Source of the DNA: Candidatus Thiodiazotropha sp. (ex Monitilora ramsayi)
Lineage (GTDB): Bacteria; Pseudomonadota; Gammaproteobacteria; Chromatiales; Chromatiaceae
Reading direction: 5' to 3'
Assembly: GCA_025655575.1 (NCBI GenBank)
Contig: JAHXIP010000010.1
Span: 58,807-122,806, forward strand
DNA length: 64,000 nt
The stretch's first letter is position 1. Each line of letters begins with the position of its first letter. Position numbers and translations under genes: made by a program. The notes beneath the pieces were generated by a model. It had not been told where the DNA came from. It did not search any database and saw only the letters and a program-made list of their open reading frames with translations. Shown here in pieces: positions 45,713-64,000 of this stretch.

Positions 45713-47021
45713 TCATCCTCACTGGCGAAAACTGCTCATACTACCCCCTATCCTACTGGGCGTTTTACTGTTGATGCTGATGGCCGGCAATAAGGAATCG
45801 CCAGTCAAATCGGAAGGCAGCGAACCCACTAAAATGGTTCGCATCATTGAGACGCCTCAACTTGAGTTGATTCCCGTTGCGGAAGGGTTTGGTTCTATTC
45901 AACCTGCGCGCGTCTGGTCCGGTATTGCACAGGTGTCCGGCCGTATAGTGGAACTCCATCCCCGCCTTAGAGACGGAGAGATCATTAGCCAGGACAGCCT
46001 GCTGTTAAAGATCGATCCTGCTGACTATGAGCTCAATCTCGCTCAGGCTGAGGCGGAACTGGCAGAGCTTGAAGTGGAAGAGACCAATGCCAAGGCCTCT
46101 CTTTCCATTGAGCAAAGAAGTCAAAAAATCGCACAGCGGGAATTAGCACGCATCAACAAGCTGGCGGCCAAAGGCACCGCTTCCCAGAGTGATGTAGACG
46201 ATGCTGAGCGAAATCTGCTAAACAGCCGTAACGCTGTACAGAATGTGAAAAACAGCCTGGCGTTGATACCGACAAAACGTAAGGTACTTGTGGCCAAAAA
46301 AACCCAGGCCGAGAGAGACCTGGAAAACACCAGCGTGCACGCACCGTTTAATCTGCGTGTGGCTAACATGGGGATAGAGATCGATCAGTTTGTCAGCAAA
46401 GGAGAGAGGTTGCTGGAAGGTGATGCCGTCGATCGTGTCGAGGTCATTGCAAGATTCCCCATGTCCTCTTTGCGTCGTCTCTTCATCGGTCGCGAACTGG
46501 CAGATATCAGCAGTGATCTCCTGAATGGAAAGCTGGCGGAGTTTGTCGCCTTCCAACCCCAGGTTCGTCTCGACATGGGAACGACCATTGCTGATTGGGA
46601 TGCCGAGTTTGTCCGCTTCAGTGACAATGTGGATCCTGAGACTCGGACTATGGGCGTCGTGGTTGCTGTCGACAAGCCCTTTGAAAAGGTCATACCGGGT
46701 CTCCGTCCCCCTCTCTCAAAAGGTATGTTCGTCCAGGTGCTCCTGCAGGGCAAACCACAACAGAATCGCATTGTAGTACCGCGCTCCGCTGTCAGAGACG
46801 GTATTGTTTATCTGGCTGATAATCAGAACAGATTGCGTCGTCAACCCGTGGAGATTCTGTTCAGTCAGGGTGAAATCAGTATTGTCAAAAAAGGTATCGA
46901 GGCGGGCCAAAAAATCGTGGTATCGGATCTGGTCCCTGCCGTCAGCGGCATGCTGCTGCAGGCCTCAACGGACGAATCCCTGACGGAGTCCATAGCACGC
47001 GCTGCGAGGGGCCAGCTATGA
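45702..47021 (+). CDS. RND efflux periplasmic adaptor
   Basis: Coiled-coil and lipoyl adaptor; start overlaps the TetR stop; 3' end overlaps the permease. Confidence 0.92.
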   Translation: MLNNHPHWRKLLILPPILLGVLLLMLMAGNKESPVKSEGSEPTKMVRIIETPQLELIPVAEGFGSIQPARVWSGIAQVSGRIVELHPRLRDGEIISQDSLLLKIDPADYELNLAQAEAELAELEVEETNAKASLSIEQRSQKIAQRELARINKLAAKGTASQSDVDDAERNLLNSRNAVQNVKNSLALIPTKRKVLVAKKTQAERDLENTSVHAPFNLRVANMGIEIDQFVSKGERLLEGDAVDRVEVIARFPMSSLRRLFIGRELADISSDLLNGKLAEFVAFQPQVRLDMGTTIADWDAEFVRFSDNVDPETRTMGVVVAVDKPFEKVIPGLRPPLSKGMFVQVLLQGKPQQNRIVVPRSAVRDGIVYLADNQNRLRRQPVEILFSQGEISIVKKGIEAGQKIVVSDLVPAVSGMLLQASTDESLTESIARAARGQL

Positions 47022-50000
47022 TCGATTGGTTCGCCCGCCATCCCACAGCAGCCAATCTCCTCATGGCATCCATCATGCTGTTAGGGCTGACCGCCCTGCC
47101 CGGTCTGCAACGTGAAACGCTGCCAGAAATCCAAAATGATGAAGTAGAAATCAGTGTCATCTACAAAGGTGCCACGGCAGACGATGTGGAAGATGCGGTC
47201 TGCCGTCGTCTGGAGGATGCCCTAGAAGGGATCAGTGATCTGGATGAGATGCGCTGTGAATCCCGAGAGGGTATGGGTGTCGCCACCGCGGTTATGATCG
47301 AAGGCGCCGATATGGCGCGTTTCCTTGATGACGTCAATGCGGAGGTCGATGCCATCGACGATTTCCCCGATCAGACCGAACTCCCGGTGATAAAAGAGTT
47401 GGGGCGCACCGAGCCAGTGATCTCTCTCGCTGTCACAGGACCTGAAGATCCGGTGGCACTCAAAGCCTACGCTGAAAATCTGAAATCTCTGTTGCTGACC
47501 CAAGAGGATATCGCCGAAGTCACTATTAACGGTTTCTCCGATCATCATATCCGGATAGAAATCCCGGATTGGCGGTTACGCCAATTCGGCCTATCCGCGA
47601 GCGATGTCGCCAATGCCGTGGGTCGTCACAGTGTCAGTACTCCTGCTGGCCGTCTGGAGGGTGAGCATGAAGATATTTTGATCCGCTTCGATGATCAGCG
47701 TAAACGTGTGGATGAGTTTTACGACCTGGCTGTCATCTCAAGCAGCAGTGGTGCGACCATTCGTCTCGGTGACATCGCAAAGATTACGGACCGGTTTGAT
47801 CGGGACGAGGAGAAGATTAGCTTTAACGGCGAACGGGCGGCCGTCTTAAATATCGCCAAAACACGCTCACAGGATATTCTGAACGTCCTCGATACGGTTA
47901 AACGTTTTGTTGAGCGAGAGAGTCTTAATGCCCCGCAGGGCATCGCCCTGACCCTCACACAGGACCGGGCATCGGTGGTACAGGACCGGCTTGATATGCT
48001 GGTGCGCAATGGTGCACAGGGACTGTTGGCGGTGTTCATGGTGCTCTGGCTGTTTTTCAGTTTACGTTATAGTTTTTGGGTCACCATGGGGCTGCCGGTC
48101 TCGTTTCTTGGTGCACTGTTTGTTCTGCCGATGGTCGGCGTCACCATCAATATGATTTCCATGGTCGGTCTGCTGATCGGTATCGGTCTGTTGATGGATG
48201 ATGCCATTGTGATTGCCGAAAACATCGCTTCTCGCATGACCAAGGGAGACAAACCATTACATGCCGCAATAACCGGTGTACGTCAGGTTTTACCGGGTAT
48301 CGCTTCATCCTTCGCCACCACGCTGATGGTATTCGGTTCCCTTGCTTTCATCACCGGCGACATCGGCCAAATACTTCGTATCATGCCGATCGTGCTGATT
48401 ATTGTAATCAGTGTCAGTCTGTTTGAGGCCTTTTTGATTCTACCGCACCATTTGAGCCACTCATTGGCCCATATGAAGAAGACGCAACCCTCCCGGTTCC
48501 GGCAGGGATTTGAAAGCCGTTTTGATAAATTTCGAGAAAACTGGTTTGGCCCCCTCCTGGATAGGGCGATTGAGTATCGTTATCTCACACTCGGCATCGT
48601 TTTGATGTTGCTGATCCTCGCCATTGCCATGCCGGTTGGAGGCAAACTGAAATTTGTCGGTTTCCCCGACCTGGACGGTGACGTGCTCGAAGCCCGGGTG
48701 CTGCTGCCACAGGGGACGCCACTAGCACAGACTGAGGCCGTCGTCGAAAAAATCACCCAAGCACTGAATCGCACCAACCAGACCTTTTTGCCTGATCAGC
48801 CCGAGTCACAACCGCTGGTGCAAAATATCACCGTCATCTATGGTCAAAACCCGGATGCCTATGAAACAGGTCCCCACGTAGCCCGTGTGGTCGCAGATCT
48901 GTTGAGTGCCGAGATCCGCAACGCCAAGTTGGACGATGTCATCAACCGTTGGCGGGAAGAGACCGGCACACTGAATGACGTCATCTCAGTTAAGTTCACA
49001 GAGCCTGCTTTCGGCCCTGGCGGTCGCCCCATCGATTTAAGGCTATTAGGCTATGATCTGGATCGCCTGAAGATGGCCTCAAGCGAACTGCAGAACTGGC
49101 TCAACAGCTATCAGGGCGTGAATGACCTGAGCGATGATCTGCGTCCGGGCAAGAGAGAGTTCCGGTTACACCTCAAATCGGGTGCCGGTGTCCTGGGGCT
49201 CGATGCACAACAGGTTGCCGAGCAGGTCAGAGCTGCCTATCAGGGTATAAAGATCGATGAGTTTCCGGTGGGACCCGAAACTTATGAGGTCAACCTTAAA
49301 CTAACCGCAGATGATCGTACGGATGCTGAAGATCTCTACAACCTGAGCATCACCGGCCCGAACGGTGCACTGATTCCCCTCTCTGCTGTTGCCGATATCG
49401 AAGAAGTCCGGGGCTGGGCGCGCATCAATCGCGTCAACCGGCAGCGTGCTGTCACAGTACAAGGGGATGTAGACCGCAGTCAGGTCAACGCACAGGAATT
49501 GCTCGGTCTGGCAAATGCCACCTTCATTCCGGGCTTGCTCGAACGCTATCCCGATGTCAAATATGACATACAGGGAGAGAGTAAAGAGTCTGCAAAAACC
49601 GGCCAGTCTATCGTGCGTAACGTGCTACTTGGCTTGATCGGTGTCTATATGTTGTTAGCACTCCAGTTCAAGGGCTATCTGGCGCCGTTGACGGTCATGA
49701 TTGTCATTCCTTCGGCACTGATCGGTGTGGTATTCGGGCATATGGCCCTCGGCCTGGATCTGACCATGCCCAGTATCGTCGGCATGGCTTCCCTGTTCGG
49801 TGTTGTGGTTAACGACTCGATTCTGTTGGTGGTGTTCATTCGGGATACCCGCGCCAATGGCACTGCGGTGGCACTTGCCGCCAAGCAGGCCGCCCGTGCC
49901 CGCTTCAGACCTATTCTGCTGACATCCATCAGTACCATCGCAGGCTTGACTCCCCTGTTATTGGAGAAAAGTCTGCAAGCCCAGATTCTCATCCCCCTTG

Positions 50001-50161
50001 CAGCCAGCATCGCCTTTGGTCTGACAGCAGCCACAATGGTCGCCCTGTTTTTAGTCCCTTCTGTCTACTGCATCCTGGATGACTTCAATCTACTCGGCAA
50101 ACTACACGATGAGACAGATGAGGAAGAAGTCGTCATACCTTCCCAGCAAAACAACGCATGA
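47018..50161 (+). CDS. RND efflux permease (AcrB family)
   Basis: 1047 aa; MVGLLIGIGLLMDDAIVIAENIASRM; two periplasmic loops. Confidence 0.95.
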   Translation: MIDWFARHPTAANLLMASIMLLGLTALPGLQRETLPEIQNDEVEISVIYKGATADDVEDAVCRRLEDALEGISDLDEMRCESREGMGVATAVMIEGADMARFLDDVNAEVDAIDDFPDQTELPVIKELGRTEPVISLAVTGPEDPVALKAYAENLKSLLLTQEDIAEVTINGFSDHHIRIEIPDWRLRQFGLSASDVANAVGRHSVSTPAGRLEGEHEDILIRFDDQRKRVDEFYDLAVISSSSGATIRLGDIAKITDRFDRDEEKISFNGERAAVLNIAKTRSQDILNVLDTVKRFVERESLNAPQGIALTLTQDRASVVQDRLDMLVRNGAQGLLAVFMVLWLFFSLRYSFWVTMGLPVSFLGALFVLPMVGVTINMISMVGLLIGIGLLMDDAIVIAENIASRMTKGDKPLHAAITGVRQVLPGIASSFATTLMVFGSLAFITGDIGQILRIMPIVLIIVISVSLFEAFLILPHHLSHSLAHMKKTQPSRFRQGFESRFDKFRENWFGPLLDRAIEYRYLTLGIVLMLLILAIAMPVGGKLKFVGFPDLDGDVLEARVLLPQGTPLAQTEAVVEKITQALNRTNQTFLPDQPESQPLVQNITVIYGQNPDAYETGPHVARVVADLLSAEIRNAKLDDVINRWREETGTLNDVISVKFTEPAFGPGGRPIDLRLLGYDLDRLKMASSELQNWLNSYQGVNDLSDDLRPGKREFRLHLKSGAGVLGLDAQQVAEQVRAAYQGIKIDEFPVGPETYEVNLKLTADDRTDAEDLYNLSITGPNGALIPLSAVADIEEVRGWARINRVNRQRAVTVQGDVDRSQVNAQELLGLANATFIPGLLERYPDVKYDIQGESKESAKTGQSIVRNVLLGLIGVYMLLALQFKGYLAPLTVMIVIPSALIGVVFGHMALGLDLTMPSIVGMASLFGVVVNDSILLVVFIRDTRANGTAVALAAKQAARARFRPILLTSISTIAGLTPLLLEKSLQAQILIPLAASIAFGLTAATMVALFLVPSVYCILDDFNLLGKLHDETDEEEVVIPSQQNNA

Positions 50162-50303
50162 GACATAAGAGATTGCATTCATTGTGAAGGTATGGAATCA
50201 CCCTCGGATAACATTCCAAACTCAAGATTAGCGATTCAGGTACGCTAACCTTTCTATCAAGCCCGCTGACATGGGCAGTCATATCAAAAAGAATCCAAAA
50301 AAT

Positions 50304-50903
50304 ATGAAAAAGGGACAACTCTTCTATCTGATGGGTGGCTCCGGGGTCGGCAAGGACAGCCTACTGCATTACCTGGAATCCCATCTGGCCCCATCAGCTC
50401 GCGTGGTAGTACCTCGCCGCTATATTACGAGAAAGATCCACAGCGGCGGCGAACCGCATATCGAGATCACCCCTGAAGCCTTTCAGCAGCGTGTGGTGGA
50501 AGGCGGCTTCGCCATGCAATGGCAGAGCCACGGATTCTCCTACGGCATCGGCACTGAAATCGATAGATGGTTGAGTGAGGGTTATCAGGTTATTGTTAAT
50601 GGCTCACGCCACTACCTGGAGACAGCGAGACAGGACTACCCAAATCTCCAGCCAGTATTAGTCACTGTGTCTCACAAGACACTCCACGAACGGCTGACAA
50701 TGCGTGGAAGGGAGAGTCACCAAGAAATTGAAAAGCGCCTGCAGCGGGCCGAAGCGCTAGACCAGGCGCTCATGCACACAGATCTGATCAGGCTGAGCAA
50801 TGATGGGCTTCTCTCCGAAGCGGGTGAGGCTTTAATACATCTCATTCTGTCGAACGATAACCCGCATTTGATGGCATTGGAGCCGAAGACGGCTACTGCT
50901 TAA
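50304..50903 (+). CDS. phnN: Ribose 1,5-bisphosphokinase (PhnN-like)
   Basis: Guanylate-kinase-like P-loop LFYLMGGSGVGKDSLL; RRYITRKIHSGGEPHIEITPEAFQQR. Confidence 0.85.
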   Translation: MKKGQLFYLMGGSGVGKDSLLHYLESHLAPSARVVVPRRYITRKIHSGGEPHIEITPEAFQQRVVEGGFAMQWQSHGFSYGIGTEIDRWLSEGYQVIVNGSRHYLETARQDYPNLQPVLVTVSHKTLHERLTMRGRESHQEIEKRLQRAEALDQALMHTDLIRLSNDGLLSEAGEALIHLILSNDNPHLMALEPKTATA

Positions 50904-51033: not shown

Positions 51034-51428
51034 GATGACCGACCATGATTTGGTTGAGTGCTTCCGTTAGCATCGATTCGGCCAATAGCTGACAGCGTTG
51101 ACAAGCAAAATCCCCGGTTATCCACTGTACTTATTTGTCTGCTATTGAAACAAGATAAAGCGACGCCCATCCTAACTTTGTCTCACCATTTGCAGCATTT
51201 CACTTTTCTTTTCGCCCTATCTCCTTTAATATAAGGGATTAATAATATTGGGGCTGCAACGGTCCCTGACTTAAAATCAATAGCTTACAAACAGTTCGAT
51301 TACGCCTCTGCAAAAATCAACTGTGAGCGGTAAATGCATCGTCTGCCACGGACTGTCTATCGATTCCGTCGCGCAATTCGGGGTACGAAGCAACCGGTAA
51401 GCGACCGAACCCATGAGTGAGCGCAAAT

Positions 51429-53210
51429 ATGTGGCAGCATGTACTGAGTCTTATGTCCGGCTGGAAAGGAGCCTTCATCCCGTTTCTGGAATGGATCGGC
51501 GAACTCAAAAATAAAGACACGGTACGAGCGGATGTTATGGCCGGCGTCACCGTGGCCCTGGTGCTGGTGCCCCAGTCCATGGCCTATGCCCAGCTCGCCG
51601 GTCTGCCGGTCTATTACGGCCTCTACGCCTCGTTCCTGCCACCGATGATTGCCGCATTTTTCGGCTCCTCGAGACAATTGGCGACCGGGCCGGTGGCCGT
51701 GGTGTCGCTGATGACCGCAGCAGCCCTGGAGCCGCTAGCAACTTCTCCTGACACCTACCTGGCCTACGCCGTACTACTGGCCTTAATGGTGGGTCTTTTC
51801 CAGATGTTTCTCGGCCTGTTTAAGCTCGGCGTCCTGGTGGACTTTCTCTCTCACCCGGTCGTGGTCGGCTTTACCAATGCAGGTGCGCTGATCATCGCCA
51901 CTTCCCAGCTGGGCAAGGTATTCGGTGTTTTTGCGGAACGCGCCGAACACCATTACGAAACCGTTTGGAATACACTTCTGGCAGCGGTAGAGGGCACCCA
52001 TTTTCCAACATTGATGATGGCAGCTTTGGCCTTCGGCATCATGTGGGGCATCCGCCGCTTCTACCCTGCTCTGCCGGGTGTTTTGATCGCGGTGGTTGTC
52101 ACGACAGTCATCGCCTGGCTGACTGACTTTGCGACAGCAGGTGGTAAGGTGGTAGGCACGATCCCTGATGGTCTGCCTGGCTTCGCCATACCGACCTTTG
52201 ATCTCACCACTGTTTGGTCATTGATTCCTGCCGCCATTACGATCTCCTTAATCGGTTTCATGGAAGCGATTTCAATCGCGAAAGCCATGGCAGCCCGTAC
52301 CAGACAACGCCTTAACGCCAATCAGGAGTTGATAGGTCAGGGCCTCTCCAATGTCGTATCAAGTGTGTTTTCCGGCTATCCGGTTTCCGGCTCCTTTTCG
52401 AGATCAGCGGTCAATATCAATGCCGGCGCCATCACCGGTTTCTCCTCTATCGTCACAGGCCTGGTCGTCGCGATCACCCTGATATTCCTGACACCGCTGC
52501 TCTATCACCTGCCACAGGCCACGTTGGCGGCCGTTATCATTATGGCGGTTATCAACCTGATCAAGATTGAGCCCATCATTCATGCCTGGAAAGCGCAGCC
52601 CCATGACGCTATCGTCGCGGTTGTCACCTTCGTGCTGACACTTGTCTTTGCGCCGCATCTCGACAAGGGCATCATCGTCGGCGTTTTGCTCTCTCTGGGA
52701 CTCTTCCTCTGGCGTACCATGCGTCCACGTTTCGCCCAACTGTCGCGTTACGACGATGGCACCATGCGTGACATTCGAGTGCATCCCCTGCCAACCAGCC
52801 CGGTTATCTCTGTCGTGCGTTTTGACGGCTCACTCTATTTCGCCAGTGCCGGCTATTTTGAAACCAAGATACTCGGCGTGGTTGCAGCCAACCCCGATCT
52901 GAAATACATCATTCTGGACGGTGAGGGTATCAACCAGATTGATGCTACTGGTGAAGAAGTCCTGCACCATCTGTGGGAACGTTTGCAGGCACAAGGTATC
53001 ACGCTGGTGGTTGCGCGCATGAAAAAACAGTTTATGGATACCATTCGCAGAACGGGATTGAGGGAGAAAATGGGTGACAATTTCTTCTCCCGAATCGGCT
53101 TGGCACTGAACTACATCTGGAACCAATTGGGGGACTCCTACGACCGGGAAAACTGTCCCCTGCGTATACCGGAAAAGCCGGAAAAGAGTGACTCCCATGC
53201 TGGCAGATAA
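51429..53210 (+). CDS. SulP family anion permease with STAS domain
   Basis: VTVALVLVPQSMAYAQLAGLPVYYGLYASFLPPMIAAFFGSSRQLATGPVAVVSLM; C-terminal STAS. Confidence 0.93.
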   Translation: MWQHVLSLMSGWKGAFIPFLEWIGELKNKDTVRADVMAGVTVALVLVPQSMAYAQLAGLPVYYGLYASFLPPMIAAFFGSSRQLATGPVAVVSLMTAAALEPLATSPDTYLAYAVLLALMVGLFQMFLGLFKLGVLVDFLSHPVVVGFTNAGALIIATSQLGKVFGVFAERAEHHYETVWNTLLAAVEGTHFPTLMMAALAFGIMWGIRRFYPALPGVLIAVVVTTVIAWLTDFATAGGKVVGTIPDGLPGFAIPTFDLTTVWSLIPAAITISLIGFMEAISIAKAMAARTRQRLNANQELIGQGLSNVVSSVFSGYPVSGSFSRSAVNINAGAITGFSSIVTGLVVAITLIFLTPLLYHLPQATLAAVIIMAVINLIKIEPIIHAWKAQPHDAIVAVVTFVLTLVFAPHLDKGIIVGVLLSLGLFLWRTMRPRFAQLSRYDDGTMRDIRVHPLPTSPVISVVRFDGSLYFASAGYFETKILGVVAANPDLKYIILDGEGINQIDATGEEVLHHLWERLQAQGITLVVARMKKQFMDTIRRTGLREKMGDNFFSRIGLALNYIWNQLGDSYDRENCPLRIPEKPEKSDSHAGR

Positions 53211-53255
53211 GTTAACCGGACTCTCTACCGATAGGACCTGTTAACACACACTGTC

Positions 53256-54716
53256 ATGCCTAGTCTGAGCTACTTACTGTTGGTGCCTCTTACCGGTGCG
53301 CTGTTAATCATACTGTTACCGCGCACGAACAGTTTGGCTATACGCACAACCGCTCTGATTGCCTCAGGAATCACTCTCCTGCTGTCTTGGGCCTATCTGA
53401 CAGAGTTTGATCAAACCCAAGCAGGCGTGCAGTTTTTACAGCAGGCAGCATGGCACACCCGGCTCGGCAGCTCCTTTGCTCTTGCATTGGATGGGTTCTC
53501 TTACCCAATGGTACTGCTCGCTACACTGTTGTGTTTCGTCGCGCTATTGGCGTCTGCCAGTGTGCAGACGCGGGTTAAAGGCTACTACAGCCTGGTGTTG
53601 CTGCTGGAGACTGCAATGCTGGGGGTCTTCATGGCGCAGGACTGGTCCCTCTTCTACATTTTTTGGGAACTCACGCTGATCCCCCTGTTCTTCCTGATCG
53701 ACCGCTGGGGCGGTAAGAACCGTCACGGTGCCGCACTGAATTTCGTGCTCTATACCATGGGTGGTTCTGTCTTCATGCTGATCAGTCTGTTGGTGCTCTT
53801 CGATGCCGTGCCCGGTCATTCCTTCTCCATGGCGGCAATGGCGGAGAGCGGCCGTGGTCTGCCGCAGCATACGCAGGTATTGATATTCCTGGGTTTCCTG
53901 ATCGGTTTCGGCGTTAAAATGCCGATCTTTCCGCTGCACGGGTGGTTGCCACTGGCGCATGTCGAGGCCCCCAGTCCCATCTCAATACTCCTCTCCGGTA
54001 TTCTGCTGAAGATGGGCTCCTACGGGCTGATCCGAGCAGCGGGTATGCTGCCAGAAGCAGTACTGGCGCTACAGGATCTACTCGTTGTACTCGCCTTCGT
54101 CAGCCTGATATATGGTGGGCTACTTGCCTGGCGACACAGTGACCTCAAAGCCATGATTGCCTATTCGTCCATCAGCCATATGGGGGTGGTCCTGCTCGGT
54201 ATCGCCGCACTCAATCTGGCCGGACTGCATGGCGCACTGATGCAGATGGTGGCCCACGGCCTGGTTGCCGGCTCCCTTTTTCTACTGATCGGCCTGCTCT
54301 ATGAACGGACCAAGACCCGGGATGTAACCCACTACAGCTCATTGGTCAGGGTCACCCCCAGATTCGCCTTTTTCACAACGTTTGCCTTCATCGCAGCCGT
54401 CTCCCTGCCCGGCACCGCAGGCTTCGTCGCAGAGCTGAATGCATTGATCGGGGGATTCGCCCGATGGGGCTGGGTTGCCTCCCTGCTGACGGTGGGCGTG
54501 CTGCTGAGTGCCGCCTACGCGGTGCGATCCATCAGTCAACTCTTCACCGGTCCGGTCCGCCCGGGCATGCGCGAGGTAGAGGATCTGAAGCCGGTGGAGC
54601 TGCTGGCAGCGGGAACACTGGCAGCTGGCACGCTCATTTTGGGTTTTATGCCGAGCCCGGTACTCAATCTGGTGAATGCCTCCGCCACCCAGCTGGCCCT
54701 GCTGTTCAACCCCTGA
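53256..54716 (+). CDS. NuoM/MrpD-like proton-conducting membrane subunit (NuoM-like 1)
   Basis: FYIFWELTLIPLFFLIDRWGG and GFGVKMPIFPLHGWLPLAHVEAPSPISILLSGILLKMGSYGLIR. Confidence 0.93.
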   Translation: MPSLSYLLLVPLTGALLIILLPRTNSLAIRTTALIASGITLLLSWAYLTEFDQTQAGVQFLQQAAWHTRLGSSFALALDGFSYPMVLLATLLCFVALLASASVQTRVKGYYSLVLLLETAMLGVFMAQDWSLFYIFWELTLIPLFFLIDRWGGKNRHGAALNFVLYTMGGSVFMLISLLVLFDAVPGHSFSMAAMAESGRGLPQHTQVLIFLGFLIGFGVKMPIFPLHGWLPLAHVEAPSPISILLSGILLKMGSYGLIRAAGMLPEAVLALQDLLVVLAFVSLIYGGLLAWRHSDLKAMIAYSSISHMGVVLLGIAALNLAGLHGALMQMVAHGLVAGSLFLLIGLLYERTKTRDVTHYSSLVRVTPRFAFFTTFAFIAAVSLPGTAGFVAELNALIGGFARWGWVASLLTVGVLLSAAYAVRSISQLFTGPVRPGMREVEDLKPVELLAAGTLAAGTLILGFMPSPVLNLVNASATQLALLFNP

Positions 54717-54732
54717 TGACGGTAACCGAGAG

Positions 54733-57700
54733 ATGAGCGCACAGCAGACCGGCAGCGGAGACATCAGACAACAGATTCGAGAATCCCTCGAGCATCTGGC
54801 CCATGTGCTGCCCGGCCAGGCACCGATCAAGGATTTCGTCCACCACAATACCCTGCACGGTTACCAGCATCTCCCCTTCTCCGAGGCCCTGGCGGCAGCA
54901 CGCCGCCTGACCGGGGCGAGAGGCTACCAGCCGTTGGAGAAGTACCGGGAATACTATCGGCAAGGGAGAATCTCCAAGGAAGATCTGCTGGCCGGCATCG
55001 ACGACGACCCGACGCTTGAGGCAGGCGTCGCCATCGTCGAAGCGGACGAGATCATCATTCGGCGACGGGACATCTACCTCGCTGCGCTCTCACTGCCGCT
55101 GCAACCGGTATCCGGCTGTCAGCTCACCTGGCAGATCGATGAAGCCGGTGCCCTGCAGAAGCTCAATGGCGATCTGCCGGGCGAGATCAGGAAACAACTG
55201 CTCAATCGTGCTGAAGAGAGCGGTCTCTCTTCCGAAACTGCTGCAACGTCCGATCTCTGGCATGCCTGTCTCGAGGCACTGCATCTGCAAGGGACACAAC
55301 CCCATCCGGAAGAGCTGCTCGACCTGGCTCCCGAGCAGGCAGAGACGATGCTGCACGACATGCTGGACGACGCGACCAGCAACGACAACAGCAACGTTTC
55401 CACCGCCACCCAGCTTATGCGGCAGGCCGCCAACGACCGGCTGGCCGAACAGATGGAGCGGATCGGCAAAGACCACAGTGTTCGTGATTTCCTGTTGGGT
55501 CTGACCGGGCATGATCTGATGGACGACATCCGTCCGCAACTGGTGAGGGAACTCTCCAATTTCCTCGACCAGGGTGTCACGGGCTGGCAACCGCAAGGAC
55601 TGGATCAGGGCTTTTACGCCTACTGGTGCGCCCAGGTAGAGAGCGACCCCAACTGGCTGATGCAGGGTATCGAGGGCTGGCGGCAGTATTTCGAATTACT
55701 CCACACCGATCCCATGGACACCATCTTCAGCGAGATGCACCGGATGGGACTGCCGCAGGAGAGATGGGTCGCCTATCTCGAGCGGCTCGCCCTGGAACTG
55801 CCCGGCTGGTCGGGCATGGTGTTGTGGCGTCACAACCATCAGGGCTATGAGGATCTCACTGCGAAGATCGATATGATCGACTACCTGGCGGTTCGCCTGG
55901 TGCTGGAAAGGATCTACGCACACCACCTCTGCGCCAGGCTGTTTCAGATTGAGTCCAGCCTCGACATGCTGCGCTGGTATTTCCGCCGCAACCATGACGA
56001 ATTCAACGTACGGGAAGCGCTCTTCAACGGCCGCCTGCCCGAATACCTCGCCAGCCGCGCACAGCGTGCCGTCCACGCTCCGCTCAGACAGTCGGCACCG
56101 GACTCCAAGTCGCCCTGGACTTACCTCTCCCACCTGATCTGGACCTGGCGTCACAGCGGCATGGAGGAGAAGACCGACCAGCCAACCCTTTGTCAGGGCG
56201 CCTGGCCGCTGTTTCAGATCGTCCAGCGCCTCGGCCTTTATGGCGGTGATGTTCGTACCCTCTCGGACCAACAGATCGAGACGATCTTCAACTGCCTGGA
56301 CAGGCTGGATGAAAATCGGGCCGGCTATCTCTGGCTGCAGGCCTATGAACGGCACTATCGCGAACAGATTCTCAAGGCACTGTCGCAAAACCACGGCCGC
56401 GGTGCCTGGTCCGACAGAGAACAGCAACCTGCCGCGCAACTGGTCTTCTGCATGGACGATCGCGAAGAGGGCATCAGGCGTCACATTGAAGAGCTGCTGC
56501 CGGAGGTCGAGACCCTGGGCGCGGCCGCCCATTTCAACGTCCCCCACAACTGGCGCGGTCTGGACGACAGCGATGCCACCCCCCTGGCGCCGGTGGTGCC
56601 GGCCCCGGTGATACCCGTCCACGAGGTCTGCGAGCGTCCCACGAGCAGTGAACGGGAAACGGGCAAAACACACCAACAAAGGCAAAACCGATTGGTGCAG
56701 ATCGGTGAGATGCTGCTGCAAGAGGGTCGGCGCGGCCTGTTGCTCCCCTCTCTCATGGCAGCGATCACAGCACCTTTCGCCCTGGCACACCTTTCCGGCA
56801 AGATCCTCCTGCCACGCGCTTTCGGTCTCTTCCTGCAGCGAGCCAGAGAGCGGCTGGTGCAGCGAGTCTCCACGAAGATCGATTACATTGCCCCCAATGA
56901 CAGCCCCGATGCGACCGTCGAGGCCCCCCGTCTGGGCTTTACCGATACGGAGCAGGCGGATCGGGTGCAGACCCTGCTGCGAAATATCGGCCTGACCGAT
57001 GGATTCTCTCCCCTGGTCGCCATCATCGGCCATGGTTCCCGCAACCAGAACAACCCCCACGCCTCCGCCTACAACTGCGGCGCCTGCGCGGGACACTTCA
57101 GCGGACCCAACGCCAGACTGGTCGCAGCCATGGCCAATCGGTCCGAAGTGCGCGCCCTGCTGGCCGATCGGGATATCCATATCCCGGCCGAGACCCATTT
57201 CATTGGCGGCGAGCACGACACCTGCAACGATGTGATCGCCTGGTACGACCTGGACGATGTGCCCGCTGAACTTCGCGATCATCTGCAGCATCTGCGAAAC
57301 AAGTTGCAGGAGGCGGCGAATCTGCATGCACAGGAGCGCTGCCGGCGCTTCGCTTCGGCGTCGGAGCGGCTCGATCCCGCTCAAGCCTATGCCCACGTCG
57401 CCGGCCGCGCCCTCGATTTCTCCCAAGCGCGGCCCGAGCTGGGTCACGCCACCAACGCTTGCGCCTTCTTCGGCCGCCGAAGTATCAGCCGGGGCGCCTT
57501 TTTCGACCGGCGTTCCTTTCTGATCTCCTATGACGCCACCCAGGATCCCGAAGGGGAGGTGTTGGAGAGACATCTCCTGATCAACGGTGCGGTGGGGGCC
57601 GGCATTAGCCTCGAGTACTACTTCTCCACGGTGGATAACGAAGGTTACGGCTGCGGCTCAAAGGTGATGCATAACGTCACTGGTTACCTCGGTGTGATGG

Positions 57701-58053
57701 AGGGGGCCAACTCTGACCTACGCACCGGTCTGCCGAGACAGATGATCGAGATCCACGAAGCCATGCGGCTGCTGGTTGTAGTGGAGGCCAAGACGGAGAC
57801 GCTGACCGCCATCTATCAGCGACAGCCACCCCTGCAGGAGCTGGTCGGCAACGGCTGGGTACAACTCACCGCCCTGGACCCGGATGAAGGGACCATCCAC
57901 CTGTTCAAGCCGGACAAGGGCTGGGTCAAGTGGCAGGCGGATGAGAAACCACTGCCTCAGGTGGACCGATCGGCTGACTGGTATCTTGGTTATGACGGAC
58001 CCTTGGCCCCCACGCTGCTCAAGACGGCGGAAACGGGAGGTACCCATGCCTGA
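54733..58053 (+). CDS. dabA: DabA (DUF2309) inorganic carbon accumulation protein
   Basis: FVHHNTLHGYQHLPF; zinc-site motifs FCMDDREEGIRRHIEE and IGHGSRNQNNPHASAYNCGACAG. Confidence 0.94.
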   Translation: MSAQQTGSGDIRQQIRESLEHLAHVLPGQAPIKDFVHHNTLHGYQHLPFSEALAAARRLTGARGYQPLEKYREYYRQGRISKEDLLAGIDDDPTLEAGVAIVEADEIIIRRRDIYLAALSLPLQPVSGCQLTWQIDEAGALQKLNGDLPGEIRKQLLNRAEESGLSSETAATSDLWHACLEALHLQGTQPHPEELLDLAPEQAETMLHDMLDDATSNDNSNVSTATQLMRQAANDRLAEQMERIGKDHSVRDFLLGLTGHDLMDDIRPQLVRELSNFLDQGVTGWQPQGLDQGFYAYWCAQVESDPNWLMQGIEGWRQYFELLHTDPMDTIFSEMHRMGLPQERWVAYLERLALELPGWSGMVLWRHNHQGYEDLTAKIDMIDYLAVRLVLERIYAHHLCARLFQIESSLDMLRWYFRRNHDEFNVREALFNGRLPEYLASRAQRAVHAPLRQSAPDSKSPWTYLSHLIWTWRHSGMEEKTDQPTLCQGAWPLFQIVQRLGLYGGDVRTLSDQQIETIFNCLDRLDENRAGYLWLQAYERHYREQILKALSQNHGRGAWSDREQQPAAQLVFCMDDREEGIRRHIEELLPEVETLGAAAHFNVPHNWRGLDDSDATPLAPVVPAPVIPVHEVCERPTSSERETGKTHQQRQNRLVQIGEMLLQEGRRGLLLPSLMAAITAPFALAHLSGKILLPRAFGLFLQRARERLVQRVSTKIDYIAPNDSPDATVEAPRLGFTDTEQADRVQTLLRNIGLTDGFSPLVAIIGHGSRNQNNPHASAYNCGACAGHFSGPNARLVAAMANRSEVRALLADRDIHIPAETHFIGGEHDTCNDVIAWYDLDDVPAELRDHLQHLRNKLQEAANLHAQERCRRFASASERLDPAQAYAHVAGRALDFSQARPELGHATNACAFFGRRSISRGAFFDRRSFLISYDATQDPEGEVLERHLLINGAVGAGISLEYYFSTVDNEGYGCGSKVMHNVTGYLGVMEGANSDLRTGLPRQMIEIHEAMRLLVVVEAKTETLTAIYQRQPPLQELVGNGWVQLTALDPDEGTIHLFKPDKGWVKWQADEKPLPQVDRSADWYLGYDGPLAPTLLKTAETGGTHA

Positions 58054-59602
58054 ACAGTACGCCGGCCTGATACCCCTGCTCTACTGGTTGGCCGCCGCCT
58101 GGATCGGCGCCGGTTATCTGCTTAACCTGAATCGCGGTGAGTCGGGTGAGAAACATACGGCCCTGGTCGCCACCTTGGCCGCCGCGGCATCGCTCATTCT
58201 TGTGGTTGTTCTCGCCGCCATGTCGTTACTTGAAGGTGCACCGGGTGCGGTTGAACTGGGCACTTGGTTTCGCAGTGGAGAGTATTCCCTGCCGCTTGGC
58301 TTGATGCTGGACCCCTTGGGCCTGTCGATCGCGACCATCGTCTCCCTGATCGCCCTGCTCGTTATCCGTTTCTCAATCAACTACATGCACCGGGAAAGCG
58401 GGTTTCAACGCTTTTTTATGCTTCTGTGCCTCTTTGCCGGTGCGATGAACCTGATTGTGCTGGCGGGCAACAGCCTGCTGATGTTTGCCGGTTGGGAGAT
58501 TGCTGGCGTCAGTTCATTCCTGCTCATCGGCTATGCGATCGAGCGGCCCACCGCCACCCGTAACGGGGTGCGGGCCTTCGTCACCAACCGGATCGGCGAT
58601 GCCGGTTTCATCCTCGGCATGGTCCTCTCCCTGTTGTGGCTGGGCGGGCTCGATTGGCAGACACTATCCCAAAGTGGCGGGGAGATCGAGACCCTGGCTG
58701 CCGGCCTGGTTGCCAGCGGTTTTGTCATTGCTGCCCTGGCCAAGTCGGCTCAACTCCCCTTCTCCCCCTGGATCGCACGGGCGCTCGAAGGCCCAACCCC
58801 CTCATCCGCTATCTTCTACGGCGCACTGATGGTGCACGCGGGGGTCATCCTACTGATTCGTCTGGAGCCGCTCCTGCAGCAGGCACAGGCAGTCATGATC
58901 GGCATCGCTGTGCTGGGTGCACTGACCGTGCTCTATGGCTGGCTCTCCGGCTTGGTCCAGTCCGATGTAAAGAGTGCACTGATGTTCTCCACTACCACTC
59001 AGGTGGGATGGATGTTCATCTGGTGCGGACTCGGCTGGTTTACCCTGGCCGCCTGGCATCTGGGGCTGCATGCCATCTGGCGAGCCTTCCAGTTTCTCTC
59101 CGCACCGGCTCTGCTCTATCAGGTCGAAGGACCTGCCCGTCCGGTACCGGCATGGCTCTCCCGTTTCCGCTGGCTGCATCAGGCGGCCCTGCATCGCTTC
59201 TGGGTTGAACCACTAAGCGACGCCCTGCTGGTACGGCCCACGGCCTCACTCTCCCGCGATGTGCAGTATTTCGATGAGCAGATCGTCACTCGGGTGGTGG
59301 GACTGCCGGCCTATACACGCAGCGTCTCCTCCCTCGCCCAGTGGGAGATGCTGAAGGAAAGAGCGTCTCAGCCGGATGCAGAGGCTGTCGGCAAAGGCAC
59401 CGGATTGGCGGGCAAACTCATGACCTGGCTGGCAGACATCCTCCACTGGTTCGAGTCACGGCTGGTATTGAGCGGCGGCGGCGAGGGGCTGCTGAAACAC
59501 CTGCATCGTATTGGCGGATTGCTCACGAGGGTGGAGCAGCTGCTGGCGGAGCCGCGCTATCTGATCGTGCTGATCGTGGTGACTTTCGTGGTGATTCTGT
59601 GA
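58046..59602 (+). CDS. NuoL-like proton-conducting membrane subunit (DabB-like)
   Basis: LLMFAGWEIAGVSSFLLIGY; AALAKSAQLPFSPWIARALEGPTPSSAIFYGALMVHAGV; start overlaps the dabA stop by 8 bp. Confidence 0.88.
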   Translation: MPEQYAGLIPLLYWLAAAWIGAGYLLNLNRGESGEKHTALVATLAAAASLILVVVLAAMSLLEGAPGAVELGTWFRSGEYSLPLGLMLDPLGLSIATIVSLIALLVIRFSINYMHRESGFQRFFMLLCLFAGAMNLIVLAGNSLLMFAGWEIAGVSSFLLIGYAIERPTATRNGVRAFVTNRIGDAGFILGMVLSLLWLGGLDWQTLSQSGGEIETLAAGLVASGFVIAALAKSAQLPFSPWIARALEGPTPSSAIFYGALMVHAGVILLIRLEPLLQQAQAVMIGIAVLGALTVLYGWLSGLVQSDVKSALMFSTTTQVGWMFIWCGLGWFTLAAWHLGLHAIWRAFQFLSAPALLYQVEGPARPVPAWLSRFRWLHQAALHRFWVEPLSDALLVRPTASLSRDVQYFDEQIVTRVVGLPAYTRSVSSLAQWEMLKERASQPDAEAVGKGTGLAGKLMTWLADILHWFESRLVLSGGGEGLLKHLHRIGGLLTRVEQLLAEPRYLIVLIVVTFVVIL

Positions 59603-59612
59603 GGAACGGGAG

Positions 59613-61127
59613 ATGGTGATAGAAGAGGTCCACTGGTCATCGCAGATCGCCTATCCAATCCTGTCACTGCTGCAGGTACTGCCGATCGGAGCGGTGATAC
59701 TGCTCTGGTTGCTGCGCCGCTCGCAGTGGATGGTCCCTGCCGGTATCGGCGTCGCCGCGCTGGAGTTTCTCATCAGTGTGGATCTGTGGCGAAATTACGA
59801 CGCCAGCCACAGCGGCATGCAGTTCAGCGAGTCGATGAGACTCTTCGACTACCTGCACTACCACACGGGGGTCGATGGCATATCGGTGGTCTTCATCCTC
59901 ATGACCGGCCTGCTGACCCTGCTCATCACCCTCTATGGCGTGGTCAGGAATCTCAAGCCCTTCCATCGTCTCTACACCTTCACCTTCATGGTGCAGGCCA
60001 CCCTGATGGCGCAGTTCGTGACACTCAATCTGCTCTGGTTCGTGCTGCTATCGGCCATACAGCTGGGACTGATCGGCTATCTGCTGTGGCGCTGGGGCAA
60101 TTCACCGGACAAGGATCTGGCGTTACGGCGCTTCTACCAGTTCATGGGTGTCAGCATCCTGTTGCTGATCGGGGGAACCGTCGTCCTCGGTTGGAGCTAC
60201 TCCGACAGCCATACCGGCACCTGGAGTTTCGATCTCATCCAGCTTGCTACTACACCGGTGTCCGAGACCTTCCGCACCGTGGCCTTCTTCCTGCTCTTCT
60301 ATGGCCTGGCGATTCGCACGCCCCTGTTCCCACTCCACGGCTGGCTGCCGATGATCGCCGAGCACGGCAATGTGGCTGTGGCACCCACCTTCCTCCTCGG
60401 TCTCAAGATCGGCATCTACGGCATGCTCAGGTTTGTCCTGCCCCTGTTGCCCACCGCCGTGATGGAGTGGCACAGCTATGTGGTTGCGTTCGCCCTGACG
60501 GGAATCTTCTACGCCGCCTTCCTCGCCATGATGCAGGACAATCTTCGTCGGCTGCTAGCCTACGCAGTGATCTCTCACACCGGCATTCTGGTACTGGGTA
60601 TTTTCAGTCTCGAACATGCTGCCTTTATGGGCAGCGTGATTCTCTCCGCCACTTTCGGCCTGGCATTGGCGGCGCTGGTCTTCACCACCGGCCTGCTCTA
60701 CCGCCGCACCCATACCACGCTGCTGCATAACCTGGGCAACCTGTTCGATAGCCTGCCTTTTCTCGGTATCACCTTTCTGATCGGCGGTCTTGCCATCGTC
60801 GGTATGCCCGGCACACCGGGGTTCGATGCGGTCCATCTGATACTGGAGTCGGCAATCCACCGCTTCGGCGCACTGGTCACCATCGCCGCCGCGCTGGGTA
60901 ACGTGGTGGCGGCCGGTTTCCTGCTGTGGGCCTTCCAGCGGGCCTTTCTCTCCCCCCGTCCGACAGGTGCCCGACCGTTCCAGGTGATACCGGTCTCGCG
61001 AGCGGAGATCTTCGTCGTCAGTGCGCTGATTCTCGTGCTGCTTGGTGCCGGTTTCTATATCGAGCCCTGGTTGACGCTGGTGGATAAACCGCTTTCGGCG
61101 CTGAGTGCGCTCTATGCCACCCCATGA
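59613..61127 (+). CDS. NuoM-like membrane subunit with divergent channel residues (NuoM-like 2)
   Basis: LAIRTPLFPLHGWLPMIAEHGNVAVAPTFLLGLKIGIYGMLRF; TM5 reads LLSAIQLGLIGYLLWRWG instead of WE. Confidence 0.88.
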   Translation: MVIEEVHWSSQIAYPILSLLQVLPIGAVILLWLLRRSQWMVPAGIGVAALEFLISVDLWRNYDASHSGMQFSESMRLFDYLHYHTGVDGISVVFILMTGLLTLLITLYGVVRNLKPFHRLYTFTFMVQATLMAQFVTLNLLWFVLLSAIQLGLIGYLLWRWGNSPDKDLALRRFYQFMGVSILLLIGGTVVLGWSYSDSHTGTWSFDLIQLATTPVSETFRTVAFFLLFYGLAIRTPLFPLHGWLPMIAEHGNVAVAPTFLLGLKIGIYGMLRFVLPLLPTAVMEWHSYVVAFALTGIFYAAFLAMMQDNLRRLLAYAVISHTGILVLGIFSLEHAAFMGSVILSATFGLALAALVFTTGLLYRRTHTTLLHNLGNLFDSLPFLGITFLIGGLAIVGMPGTPGFDAVHLILESAIHRFGALVTIAAALGNVVAAGFLLWAFQRAFLSPRPTGARPFQVIPVSRAEIFVVSALILVLLGAGFYIEPWLTLVDKPLSALSALYATP

Positions 61128-61139
61128 GACACCGGAACC

Positions 61140-62642
61140 ATGACCAGTATTGAACAGATGACCAACCTGCCAGTGCTCTCATCCCTGCTTCTGCTTCCCC
61201 TGCTCGGCGCCGCGGTGATCTGGATGCTGCCGCGGGCAAAAGCGAAAGCTGTGGCGCTGCTCACACTAATCGTTGCACTGGCTCCGGCACTGATGACGGT
61301 GATTGGGCTCGATGCCGCGAATTCTGACTTTCAATTCACCGAGCAGTATCCGTGGATTCCGGCACTGGACGCCCATTTCCGCTTTGGTGTCGACGGTATC
61401 TCAGCACCATTTCTGCCCCTGACCGTGCTGTTGTTCATCGCCGTGGTGCTCGCTTCCTGGACCAGCATCCAGTCCATACCCAGGGTCTACTACACCCTGC
61501 TGATGCTGTTCGCTTCCGCCACGCTGGGCGTCTTCATGAGCATCGATGCCCTGGCCTTCTTCCTCTTCTGGGAGCTGACCCTGGTACCGCTCTACTTCCT
61601 GATCAGTCTGTGGGGCATCGGTCCCCATCGGCGCTACGCGGCCACCAAGTACACCCTGTTCATGCTGGCCGGCGGCATTCCTCTGCTGCTCGCCATCGCT
61701 TTTCTCGCCTTCAACCACGCCGAGGTCATGGGTGCGACCCCGCCCGCGGGCCTCTCGTTCGACTACCGGACACTGCTGGAGACACCGCTGACACCGGGGC
61801 TGGAGACCATCGTCTTCCTCTTCCTGCTGATCGGATTCGCCGTCAAGACGCCGCTCTTTCCCCTGCACACCTGGCTGCCCATCGTCGCCCTGGAGGGACC
61901 GGCCCCGGTCGCCGCCCTGTTGGTGGGTCTCAAGCTGGGCGCTTACGGGCTGATTCGTTTCACCGTGCCGCTGGCGCCCACTGCGGCGCAGGAACTGCAT
62001 TGGCTGCTGGCGGGATTGGGGGTGATCGGTGTTCTCTACGGGGCTTTGGCGGCATTCAGTCAGACCAACCTGCGCCGCATGCTGGCCTACGCTTCCATGA
62101 GTCATGTGGGACTGGTGGTGCTCGGTATCGCATCCTTCAGCCACCAGGGTCTGCAGGGCGCGGTCTTTCAACTGTTGAATTTCGTGGTCATCGCCGGCGG
62201 GCTCTTTCTGTTGACCGGCTACCTGCACCATCGCCTGGGATCGACAGACCTGATCCATCTCGGCGGCATCGCCCAGCGCATGCCCCTGCTGGCGGCCTTT
62301 TTCATGTTTCTGGGACTGGCCTCCCTCGGCATTCCGGGTACCAGCGGTTTCCCCGCAGAGTTTCTGATTCTGTTCAGTGCCCTGCAGTCCCATACCGGCG
62401 CCGGTTTGGCGGCCCTGTTCGGGATGATTATCGGTGCCGGTTATCTGCTCAACAACTATCGCCAGAGTTTCTACGGCCCCGTGACCCAGGACCAGGTCAG
62501 GGTTGCGCAGGATCTACGCACCCGTGAGCTGATCACCATGTTGGCCTTTACGCTGCTGGTGCTGCTGTTCGGCTTTTTCCCCGGCCTTCTTCTCGATCTG
62601 ACCGATGCCACCGTCACCCACTGGCTGACACGGATGCAATAG
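61140..62642 (+). CDS. NuoM-like proton-conducting membrane subunit (NuoM-like 3)
   Basis: FFLFWELTLVPLYFLISLWGIG; GFAVKTPLFPLHTWLPIVALEGPAPVAALLVGLKLGAYGLIRF. Confidence 0.92.
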   Translation: MTSIEQMTNLPVLSSLLLLPLLGAAVIWMLPRAKAKAVALLTLIVALAPALMTVIGLDAANSDFQFTEQYPWIPALDAHFRFGVDGISAPFLPLTVLLFIAVVLASWTSIQSIPRVYYTLLMLFASATLGVFMSIDALAFFLFWELTLVPLYFLISLWGIGPHRRYAATKYTLFMLAGGIPLLLAIAFLAFNHAEVMGATPPAGLSFDYRTLLETPLTPGLETIVFLFLLIGFAVKTPLFPLHTWLPIVALEGPAPVAALLVGLKLGAYGLIRFTVPLAPTAAQELHWLLAGLGVIGVLYGALAAFSQTNLRRMLAYASMSHVGLVVLGIASFSHQGLQGAVFQLLNFVVIAGGLFLLTGYLHHRLGSTDLIHLGGIAQRMPLLAAFFMFLGLASLGIPGTSGFPAEFLILFSALQSHTGAGLAALFGMIIGAGYLLNNYRQSFYGPVTQDQVRVAQDLRTRELITMLAFTLLVLLFGFFPGLLLDLTDATVTHWLTRMQ

Positions 62643-62647
62643 ATCCG

Positions 62648-63718
62648 TTAACCGGGTCTGCTCTCCTGCAACACCTCCAACTCCCGCGATTGCCAATTGA
62701 GTACGGCGGTCTGCTCATACATCTTTTTCGCCAGATCGGGGTATTCGTCTCGGATCTGCTGGGCAGCGAATTCGCGCATGAACTGGGATTTCAACTCGGC
62801 CCTGGCCCTATCCACACCCAGCTCCTGGTAGGGCACCGACGCCAGTAGCAAGAAACCGTCTTCGGGAATCCGCCCGGCACTCATATTGCTCTCTATGATA
62901 CCCGCCGCCTTGTGGATCGGGACCGACAGGTTGGGGCTGTAGGGGCCGATGATCAGAGCCAGATTAGGCATATGGAGAAAATCGAATCCCCGACCGATGC
63001 AGATCATCCACTCACGGTGCACGTTATCGAGCAGTCTATCCGCTCGCCGAGCCTCATCGATATGGTCAAGGTTGCCTGATATCAACGGCAGAAGATCCTG
63101 TCGCATCTGCGCACTCATATCCGGGAACAACCTCTCCAGCCTGGGCAACAGGGTATCCTTGTCGCTCGGGTTTAAGGTGGACATATCGAGCTGCTCACCT
63201 TCGCTGCCGTGCAGGATCAGCGCGTCCTCGTCGGTCTCGAAGCCGCAGACCACAGGATAGACCGTACTGTGACCCACGCCAAAGACCTGCTCCACCTGCT
63301 TTTTGATCTGATAGGTATGGGCCTTCGCCGCCTCGGTATCATAGTTGAAACCGGCACATCCCCGCTGGGGATCTCCCTTTGAGAAGTGATAGGTGATGAG
63401 GAACATCGACCGGCGCCCTTCGGAGACGATGTTCTGCAGATAGTTGGAAAGGACCTCGCCCAGGTGGGGCCAACCCAGATTGAACATCCCCCCGAGATTG
63501 CGAAACGGCTGGATGATGCCCCGCGGTGTATTGGTGGCGACCGGGATGTTGATACGACCATCCATGCATTTCAACACCGCGATCGAAGTGGGATGCTCCG
63601 CAAGATACCGGGTGCGGGCCAGCCAATTGTCTGGGCTACTGTAGTTTTTCGAGTGGCGGCTGGCGTGCCCCAGCAACCATTCAATCCTCTCTTCGATGGG
63701 CTTATTGTGTATATCCAT
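62648..63718 (-). CDS. Divergent beta-carbonic-anhydrase-like protein
   Basis: AVLKCMDGRINI (C-x-D-x-R), FRNLGGMFNLGW, LITYHFSKGDPQRGCAGF (H then C); start MDIHNKPIEERIEW at 63718. Confidence 0.6.
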   Translation of the reverse strand: MDIHNKPIEERIEWLLGHASRHSKNYSSPDNWLARTRYLAEHPTSIAVLKCMDGRINIPVATNTPRGIIQPFRNLGGMFNLGWPHLGEVLSNYLQNIVSEGRRSMFLITYHFSKGDPQRGCAGFNYDTEAAKAHTYQIKKQVEQVFGVGHSTVYPVVCGFETDEDALILHGSEGEQLDMSTLNPSDKDTLLPRLERLFPDMSAQMRQDLLPLISGNLDHIDEARRADRLLDNVHREWMICIGRGFDFLHMPNLALIIGPYSPNLSVPIHKAAGIIESNMSAGRIPEDGFLLLASVPYQELGVDRARAELKSQFMREFAAQQIRDEYPDLAKKMYEQTAVLNWQSRELEVLQESRPG

Positions 63719-64000
63719 GATCACTCCTGCATTGACTGAATGGAACTTGCCGTAACTTTTACACAGTGTCAATTACACCGCTCAATGGGCGTATGCCTCC
63801 ATGACACATGTCAGACCCCCTTTTCGGGAATTGTCGTTCACGACTATACCCACACGGAGAAAGGTCTTGAAAAGGGCTGCCCCCTTTCGCGTATGATGCG
63901 AAAATATTCGCCAATTGATGCACTGCCACCGGTTTTCCAATCCGGCAGTCAACCGCCCGATCAATAGAAAGTGATGAACCATGAATGAAAAAGAGCTTAC

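Follow-up and report, generated by a model that had tools for sequence, protein, structure and literature searches.

A conserved five-gene DabA operon with two predicted ion paths suggests shifted coupling in a DAB-family CO2-uptake system

The 64,000-nucleotide stretch of Candidatus Thiodiazotropha sp. (ex Monitilora ramsayi) analysed here (the window) is the end of a 122.8-kb contig (C10, which ends at window base 64000) of a 3.9-Mb bacterial genome (the host genome below), and carries an operon of six closely packed genes, all on the + strand, encoding a SulP permease, DabA, a NuoL-like protein (DabB) and three NuoM-like proteins (M1, M2 and M3). Five of these genes, without SulP, form a conserved block, M1-DabA-DabB-M2-M3, referred to below as class C. 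With confidence slightly better than even, we read this block as encoding a five-subunit DAB/DAC vectorial CO2 hydratase in which coupling would have shifted to M1 and M3, with DabB as the link and M2 as a filler. Gene set, order, scattering, clades and residue patterns are read directly from the sequences.

Gaps of 45, 16, -8, 10 and 12 bases separate the six genes, in keeping with a preliminary description of this DNA, whose same-strand run SulP - NuoM-like - DabA - NuoL-like - NuoM-like - NuoM-like, with short gaps or overlaps, was borne out in order and coordinates. SulP starts at a GTG at 51417, the in-frame ATG at 51429 having been taken as its start earlier, and a convergent gene at 62648-63718 (-) was absent from the earlier listing. 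The features are as follows.

51417..53210, + strand: SulP-family permease with STAS domain (Pfam Sulfate_transp and STAS; TIGR00815, 463 bits), an optional accessory
53256..54716, + strand: M1, NuoM-like (NCBIfam NuoM, 484 bits; own clade, SH-aLRT 100)
54733..58053, + strand: DabA, beta-carbonic-anhydrase-like catalytic subunit (Pfam PF10070, 777.7 bits against a curated cut-off of 25)
58046..59602, + strand: DabB, NuoL-like (8-base overlap with DabA; transmembrane helices (TM) 1-11 kept, NuoL TM12 region lost)
59613..61127, + strand: M2, NuoM-like, predicted to be non-conducting (NCBIfam NuoM, 290 bits; sister of M3)
61140..62642, + strand: M3, NuoM-like (NCBIfam NuoM, 458 bits; own clade, SH-aLRT 98)
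62648..63718, - strand: CsoSCA2-type carbonic anhydrase (Pfam CsoSCA_cat; TIGR02701 domain match), convergent and outside the core

Pfam Proton_antipo_M matched four of the six operon genes (M1, DabB, M2 and M3). All three NuoM-like proteins exceed the NCBIfam NuoM subfamily cut-off of 263.8 bits; DabB falls below the NCBIfam NuoL cut-off, its match covering the first ~360 residues only. Pfam searches and reading of the genes found none of the small Mrp subunits MnhB/C/E/F/G in the operon, and complex I electron-transfer modules were absent from the six closely packed genes.

A one-genome-per-species scan yielded 80 DabA loci, 54 of which have room on both sides of DabA. The exact order M1-DabA-DabB-M2-M3 recurs in 53 of these 54 (50 by open reading frame (ORF) calling and 3 more by tblastn), so the arrangement is not due to chance, and the DabA neighbourhoods do contain a conserved multi-subunit cluster. 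The sole exception, L061 (L and G denote our loci and genomes), carries DabA and DabB twice in tandem, between M1 and the M2-M3 pair; of its two DabA proteins, one clusters with the unlinked DabA of genomes G203 and G074 (see below). Five-gene loci span Chromatiales, Thiotrichales, Methylococcales, beta groups and Magnetococcales, with median gaps of -8 to 10 bases within the unit, and the closest relatives with a name belong to Candidatus Thiodiazotropha, which live in symbiosis with lucinid clams (the DabA of L016 is 95% identical). SulP is an optional neighbour, lying directly upstream of M1 in 20/80 loci and anywhere in the locus in 27/80. Two apparent departures proved to be artefacts: the N-terminal ~520 residues of a putative 1610-residue M1-DabA fusion in L119 are an out-of-frame reading, tblastn placing M1 in another frame, and the absence of DabB or M2 from L024, L062 and L086 reflects ORF-calling misses.

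Class C is one of three types of DabA operon. DabA was found in 70 genomes of a sample of 274 from the taxonomic class, and 77 loci from these were examined. Class A consists of DabB-DabA, with a DabA of mostly 800-870 residues; class B consists of DabB, a ~250-residue protein and a DabA of ~1040 residues, often with a gene of ~108 codons behind it; and class C has the five genes of the conserved block. The three classes agree with the three COG3002 operon types described in 2017, when NuoM and SulP genes had already been noted beside DabA where it precedes the NuoL homologue, and when it was suggested that extra membrane subunits could go with a larger number of ions (PMC5700660). A 2026 paper names only two- and three-subunit forms (PMC13144422). 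Two further loci from the survey deserve mention. In L097 (G172 C5:6000-25000), class A and class B operons stand side by side in one genome. In L109 (G025 C1:75500-92000), DabA, with Asp in its finger, adjoins SulP and a full Mrp/complex-I-like set (MnhE, MbhD/E, MnhB, NuoK-like, MrpD-like, NuoL-like and NuoM-like) in what is a different multi-subunit DabA system; the seven PF00361 matches of this genome include no separate Nuo set.

The catalytic site of DabA is conserved. The zinc ligands Cys351, His524 and Cys539 (numbering of DabA2, the DabA of DAB2) and the Asp353-Arg355 pair are invariant in 90/90 class C sequences, the host's included; the C-x-D-x-R motif and the His and Cys 15 apart, already pointed out in the preliminary description, align to Cys351/Asp353/Arg355 and His524/Cys539. 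The AlphaFold2 model of DabA has a predicted local distance difference test score of 80.8, and among the Foldseek matches listed for it the only protein is CsoSCA, a beta-carbonic anhydrase (E 0.012); DAB2 is not among them, in a library that runs to April 2026.

The finger of DabA differs between the classes. In the DAB2 structure, DabA2 Glu444 sits in place of the NuoL TM12 charges, and both E444A and E444Q abolish activity (PMC13144422). This position is Glu in 32/32 class A and 27/27 class B sequences; in the host DabA it is Ala676, and class C as a whole has a non-acidic residue there in 85/90 sequences (Ala, Thr, Val, Leu, Met, Cys, Ile, Pro, Gly or Ser) and Asp in 5/90. The loss is robust to small misalignment, because no column of the predicted finger helix 670-692 (AlphaFold2) is acidic in more than 6% of class C sequences. 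The Asp carriers (G051, a genus with a DabB:M2 fusion, two Methylobacter, and a Methylococcus with G136) are basal within class C, whose acid-free crown group is one clade, so that a single loss would explain the pattern.

Ion-path residues were compared in a joint alignment; positions are those of E. coli NuoM and NuoL. M1 has E144, K234, H241, K265, H322, H348 and E407, with K173 replaced by Asn, and M3 has E144, K173, K234, H241, K265, H322 and E407, with H348 replaced by Phe; across orthologs, Glu144, Lys234, His241, Lys265, His322 and Glu407 are present in both proteins in every scored sequence bar one truncated end. M2, in every complete class C ortholog scored, is non-acidic at 144, has Arg at 234 and Ala, Val or Ile at 407, and keeps Lys265; it is probably a non-conducting, structural copy. 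The M2 of the deepest lineage, G051, which is in two fragments, has Val144, Lys234 and Glu407, possibly an intermediate state.

DabB of class C has Glu144 in 99% of sequences, at a position that is mostly Ile, Leu, Val or Cys in class A and mostly His or Tyr in class B, and keeps Arg175, Asp178, Lys229 and Lys305 as well as H338 and a basic residue at 342. The Ile that DAB2 has in place of Glu144, in TM5, is proposed to keep the path from closing, and putting Glu back cut growth by half (PMC13144422). No counterpart of the NuoL TM12 region was found in the alignment of class C DabB; its structural model, read without the low-confidence C-terminal third, fits NuoL at ~2 Å over ~360 columns. The idea that Glu144 is kept because it faces a neighbour's TM12 Glu could not be shown. 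With the TM5 and TM12 glutamates gone from M2, and with DabA lacking the acid by which the DAB2 finger completes the path of DabB, only M1 and M3 appear to have intact ion paths, and the four ion-conducting subunits proposed in the preliminary description are not upheld.

One could instead suppose that a single ion per turnover passes through DabB as in DAB2, by another exit path, with M1, M2 and M3 structural or regulatory. The residues kept in DabB (R175, D178, K229, K305, H338 and the basic residue at 342) fit this, but the predicted finger helix 670-692 has no conserved acid anywhere, and a purely structural role would not require the near-complete path residues in M1 and M3 of every scored ortholog, with M2 as an example of relaxed constraint. 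We regard this alternative as unlikely.

Whether the five subunits belong together can also be judged from genomes in which the genes are scattered. In G203 and G074 (one genus), DabA is unlinked to the other four genes, which form an operon of their own in the order M1-DabB-M2-M3 (L254 3436-9494 and L255 3452-9510; see also L168 and L169). As judged by eye, the lone DabA adjoins a PHA-synthase-like gene and a TerC-like gene follows the M1-DabB-M2-M3 operon. In G068 and G199 (another genus), DabB and M2 are fused into one 1045-residue protein, whose gene adjoins or lies near that of DabA, and M1 and M3 stand singly at other sites; a first impression that the L132 and L133 genomes had no M1 and M3 was wrong, both carrying them elsewhere.

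L132 10299-13436 and L133 2353-5490: DabB:M2 fusion, in genomes without RuBisCO matches

These two layouts mean that the complete five-gene set is kept even without linkage. All parts are likewise present in the early-branching G051, in pieces on three contigs, which we infer to make up one set.

A tree of 96 antiporter-like proteins (quick search without bootstraps; support from the Shimodaira-Hasegawa-like approximate likelihood ratio test, SH-aLRT) gives one clade each to M1, M2, M3 and class C DabB (SH-aLRT 100, 100, 98 and 100, respectively), makes M2 and M3 sisters (95) and sets M1 beside NuoM (92). The NuoM, NuoL and NuoN of the host genome itself fall in the Nuo clades and no operon subunit is nested with them, which rules out that M1-M3 are copies of its own Nuo proteins. 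Grouping of the NuoM-like proteins with the genome's own Nuo or Mrp-like proteins, which had been named beforehand as fatal to a larger DabA assembly, did not occur. Conserved order, the survival of the set when scattered, the DabB:M2 fusion and the separate clades support a DAB-family system with complex-I-like membrane subunits that belong together, as the preliminary description had envisaged.

The same observations bear on a different arrangement, an ordinary two-subunit DabA and DabB co-transcribed with a separate Mrp-like M1-M2-M3 antiporter that handles H+ or Na+ from bicarbonate accumulation. M1-M3 are indeed full-length antiporter-like proteins, and ion housekeeping beside the cluster does occur, a gene for an Na+/H+ antiporter of NhaD appearance (by eye) lying near it in 8/80 loci (L031, L039, L049, L053, L057, L060, L062 and L063); such neighbours may hint at a relevance of Na+. 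However, the small Mrp subunits do not accompany M1-M3, one genus has DabB and M2 as a single fused protein, and scattering leaves the set of five genes complete. A DabA without the acid that a two-subunit DAB needs should, moreover, not work like DAB2 with DabB alone. A separate antiporter is therefore improbable in our view.

In the five-subunit reading that we prefer, the complex would be a gradient-driven carbonic anhydrase that converts incoming CO2 to bicarbonate in the cytoplasm, CO2 hydration being favoured by the zinc site and the family to which DabA belongs. DabA would hold the zinc site and sit on DabB, the NuoL-like protein without the TM12 region. Since the finger acid is gone from DabA, and the TM5 Glu that disappeared from the smaller forms is still there in DabB, passage of ions at the DabA-DabB junction would have become unnecessary; together with the kept paths of M1 and M3 and the decay of M2, these changes point to ion passage having moved to M1 and M3. 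Ion flow through these two intact NuoM-like paths (most likely two H+, possibly Na+) would drive DabA conformationally via DabB, much as antiporter-like subunits are linked to a distant reaction in complex I, and the degenerate M2 would probably be structural. We infer the physical complex, CO2 hydration, its direction, the ion and the stoichiometry of two from these sequence patterns. More tentatively, and with less than even confidence, we propose the strict form, in which CO2 hydration is driven at a distance: no ion would pass the DabA-DabB junction, M1 and M3 would pass about two ions per CO2 and drive hydration through a network around the DabB TM5 Glu, and M2 would be an inert spacer. 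If so, the ion-to-CO2 ratio of the DAB family would have changed during evolution.

Several points weigh against a five-subunit hydratase with shifted coupling. DabB, with R175, D178, K229, K305 and H338 kept, may conduct by an exit unseen in the alignment. Stem lineages have five genes yet still a finger Asp, so that the coupling shift is not simply tied to the gain of extra subunits. DabA2 Ser356 is replaced by Glu and Leu658 by His in 90/90 class C DabA sequences, and the chemistry could differ. Finally, a cytoplasmic-type CsoSCA2 next door, in a genome without a carboxysome shell, would short-circuit a classical bicarbonate pool.

The name of this CsoSCA2 follows PMC9164163; the protein has the CsoSCA catalytic domain with its active residues (C51, D53, R55, H111 and C121, conserved in 16/16) and a short N-terminus, and its gene lies outside carboxysome loci, convergent with the operon and 5 bases past M3. 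The gene is present in 15/80 loci, standing beside the cluster in other Thiodiazotropha and in a few other loci (L033, L070, L072 and L078). No carboxysome (bacterial microcompartment, BMC) shell genes were found in the host genome, which has two RuBisCO genes. CsoSCA2 may give CO2 back in the vicinity of RuBisCO, or its expression may fall at other times. SulP is a possible parallel bicarbonate route outside the core; against the BicA equivalog (NCBIfam) it reaches 142 bits of an 880-bit cut-off, which leaves other SulP bicarbonate transporters open to it. Both SulP and CsoSCA2 appear to be accessory. Further upstream lie genes for a PhnN-type ribose 1,5-bisphosphokinase (50271-50903, +) and an RND-type efflux pair named by eye (45702-50161, +), which are probably unrelated to the operon because they are shared mainly with the nearest Thiodiazotropha.

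It is also conceivable that class C DabA has drifted towards another reaction, of an anion or of redox type, and that SulP delivers or clears the anion. Such a drift would fit with the replacement of S356 by Glu and of L658 by His, both close to the zinc site and seen in 90/90; Leu658 in DabA2 itself replaces the transition-state-stabilising glutamine of ordinary beta-carbonic anhydrases (cited DAB2 literature), so that His at 658 is a second class-specific change. The substrate of SulP is also not identifiable from sequence, and no RuBisCO match was found in the fusion-genus genomes or in G051. On the other hand, the zinc ligands and the Asp-Arg pair are all invariant, and RuBisCO occurs in 8/8 checked class C genomes with an intact complete cluster and in the host genome (as well as in both lone-DabA genomes), which makes a drifted reaction doubtful. 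Unless CO2 is far from equilibrium, its hydration releases less energy than the export of even a single ion costs. Reverse operation, with ion export powered by CO2 hydration or some other reaction of DabA and a gradient as the result, was first suggested for this operon type, with exergonic chemistry and more ions for more subunits (PMC5700660), and is very improbable given also that DAB2 accumulates inorganic carbon and needs a proton gradient (PMC13144422).

How DAB/DAC systems couple ion flow to CO2 hydration is a question to which the 2026 DAB2 structure is a first step. Class C amounts to a natural experiment on it, being without a residue marked essential in DAB2 and having two apparently intact ion paths with no counterpart in the smaller forms. 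If the complex works, the DAB2 coupling model is not universal, and ions per CO2 can be compared between classes. Its bearers include sulfur-oxidising symbionts of clams and tubeworms, methanotroph genomes and Magnetococcales, on whose carbon supply it bears, and it is relevant to the engineering of CO2 uptake.

With the two-subunit DAC of Halothiobacillus neapolitanus (DAB2, DabA2-DabB2, PDB 9rd0), class C shares the PF10070 subunit (over cut-off), the zinc ligands and Asp-Arg pair, finger helices in DabA, and a NuoL-like partner with TM1-11 kept and the TM12 region altered, which are features of the DAC/DAB family. It differs in having five subunits, DabA upstream of DabB and a DabA that is ~230 residues longer, and in the S356 to Glu and L658 to His changes; two features of the two-subunit mechanism are missing, the finger acid Glu444 and the loss of the TM5 Glu, which DabB keeps (Ile151 in DabB2). 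The DAB1-type three-gene DAC (DabB, a ~250-residue protein, a DabA of ~1040 residues and often a PII-sized gene) shares the long DabA and PF10070 with PF00361, but has no extra antiporter-like subunits, a finger Glu in 27/27 and a DabB TM5 residue that is mostly His or Tyr. The complex I membrane arm (NuoL/M/N) and Mrp antiporters have in common the TM5 Glu, TM7 Lys, TM8 Lys and TM12 Glu; unlike them, class C has no NADH or quinone module, no NuoK/J/H and no small Mrp genes, and its subunits form separate clades. Cyanobacterial NDH-1MS is driven by ferredoxin oxidation and has a CupA-type catalytic protein. Those differences aside, it carries out vectorial CO2 hydration on antiporter-like subunits, as likewise proposed here (PMC13144422 and general knowledge). 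The nearest precedent is the 'clade C' of COG3002 operons in the COGNAT paper (PMC5700660), with DabA upstream of a NuoL homologue and NuoM and SulP nearby; matched by description, it is almost certainly the same group as class C. The preliminary description had called the multi-subunit form much less described, which is right for its function (given as unknown in 2017, with no functional work on class C found in the open-access literature searched) but not for its existence, the extra NuoM and SulP genes having been noted in 2017. The main text of that paper does not define the five-gene core, the residue changes, the fusion or the scattering, and the definition of class C as a five-subunit set with shifted coupling residues appears to be new as far as the searched literature goes.

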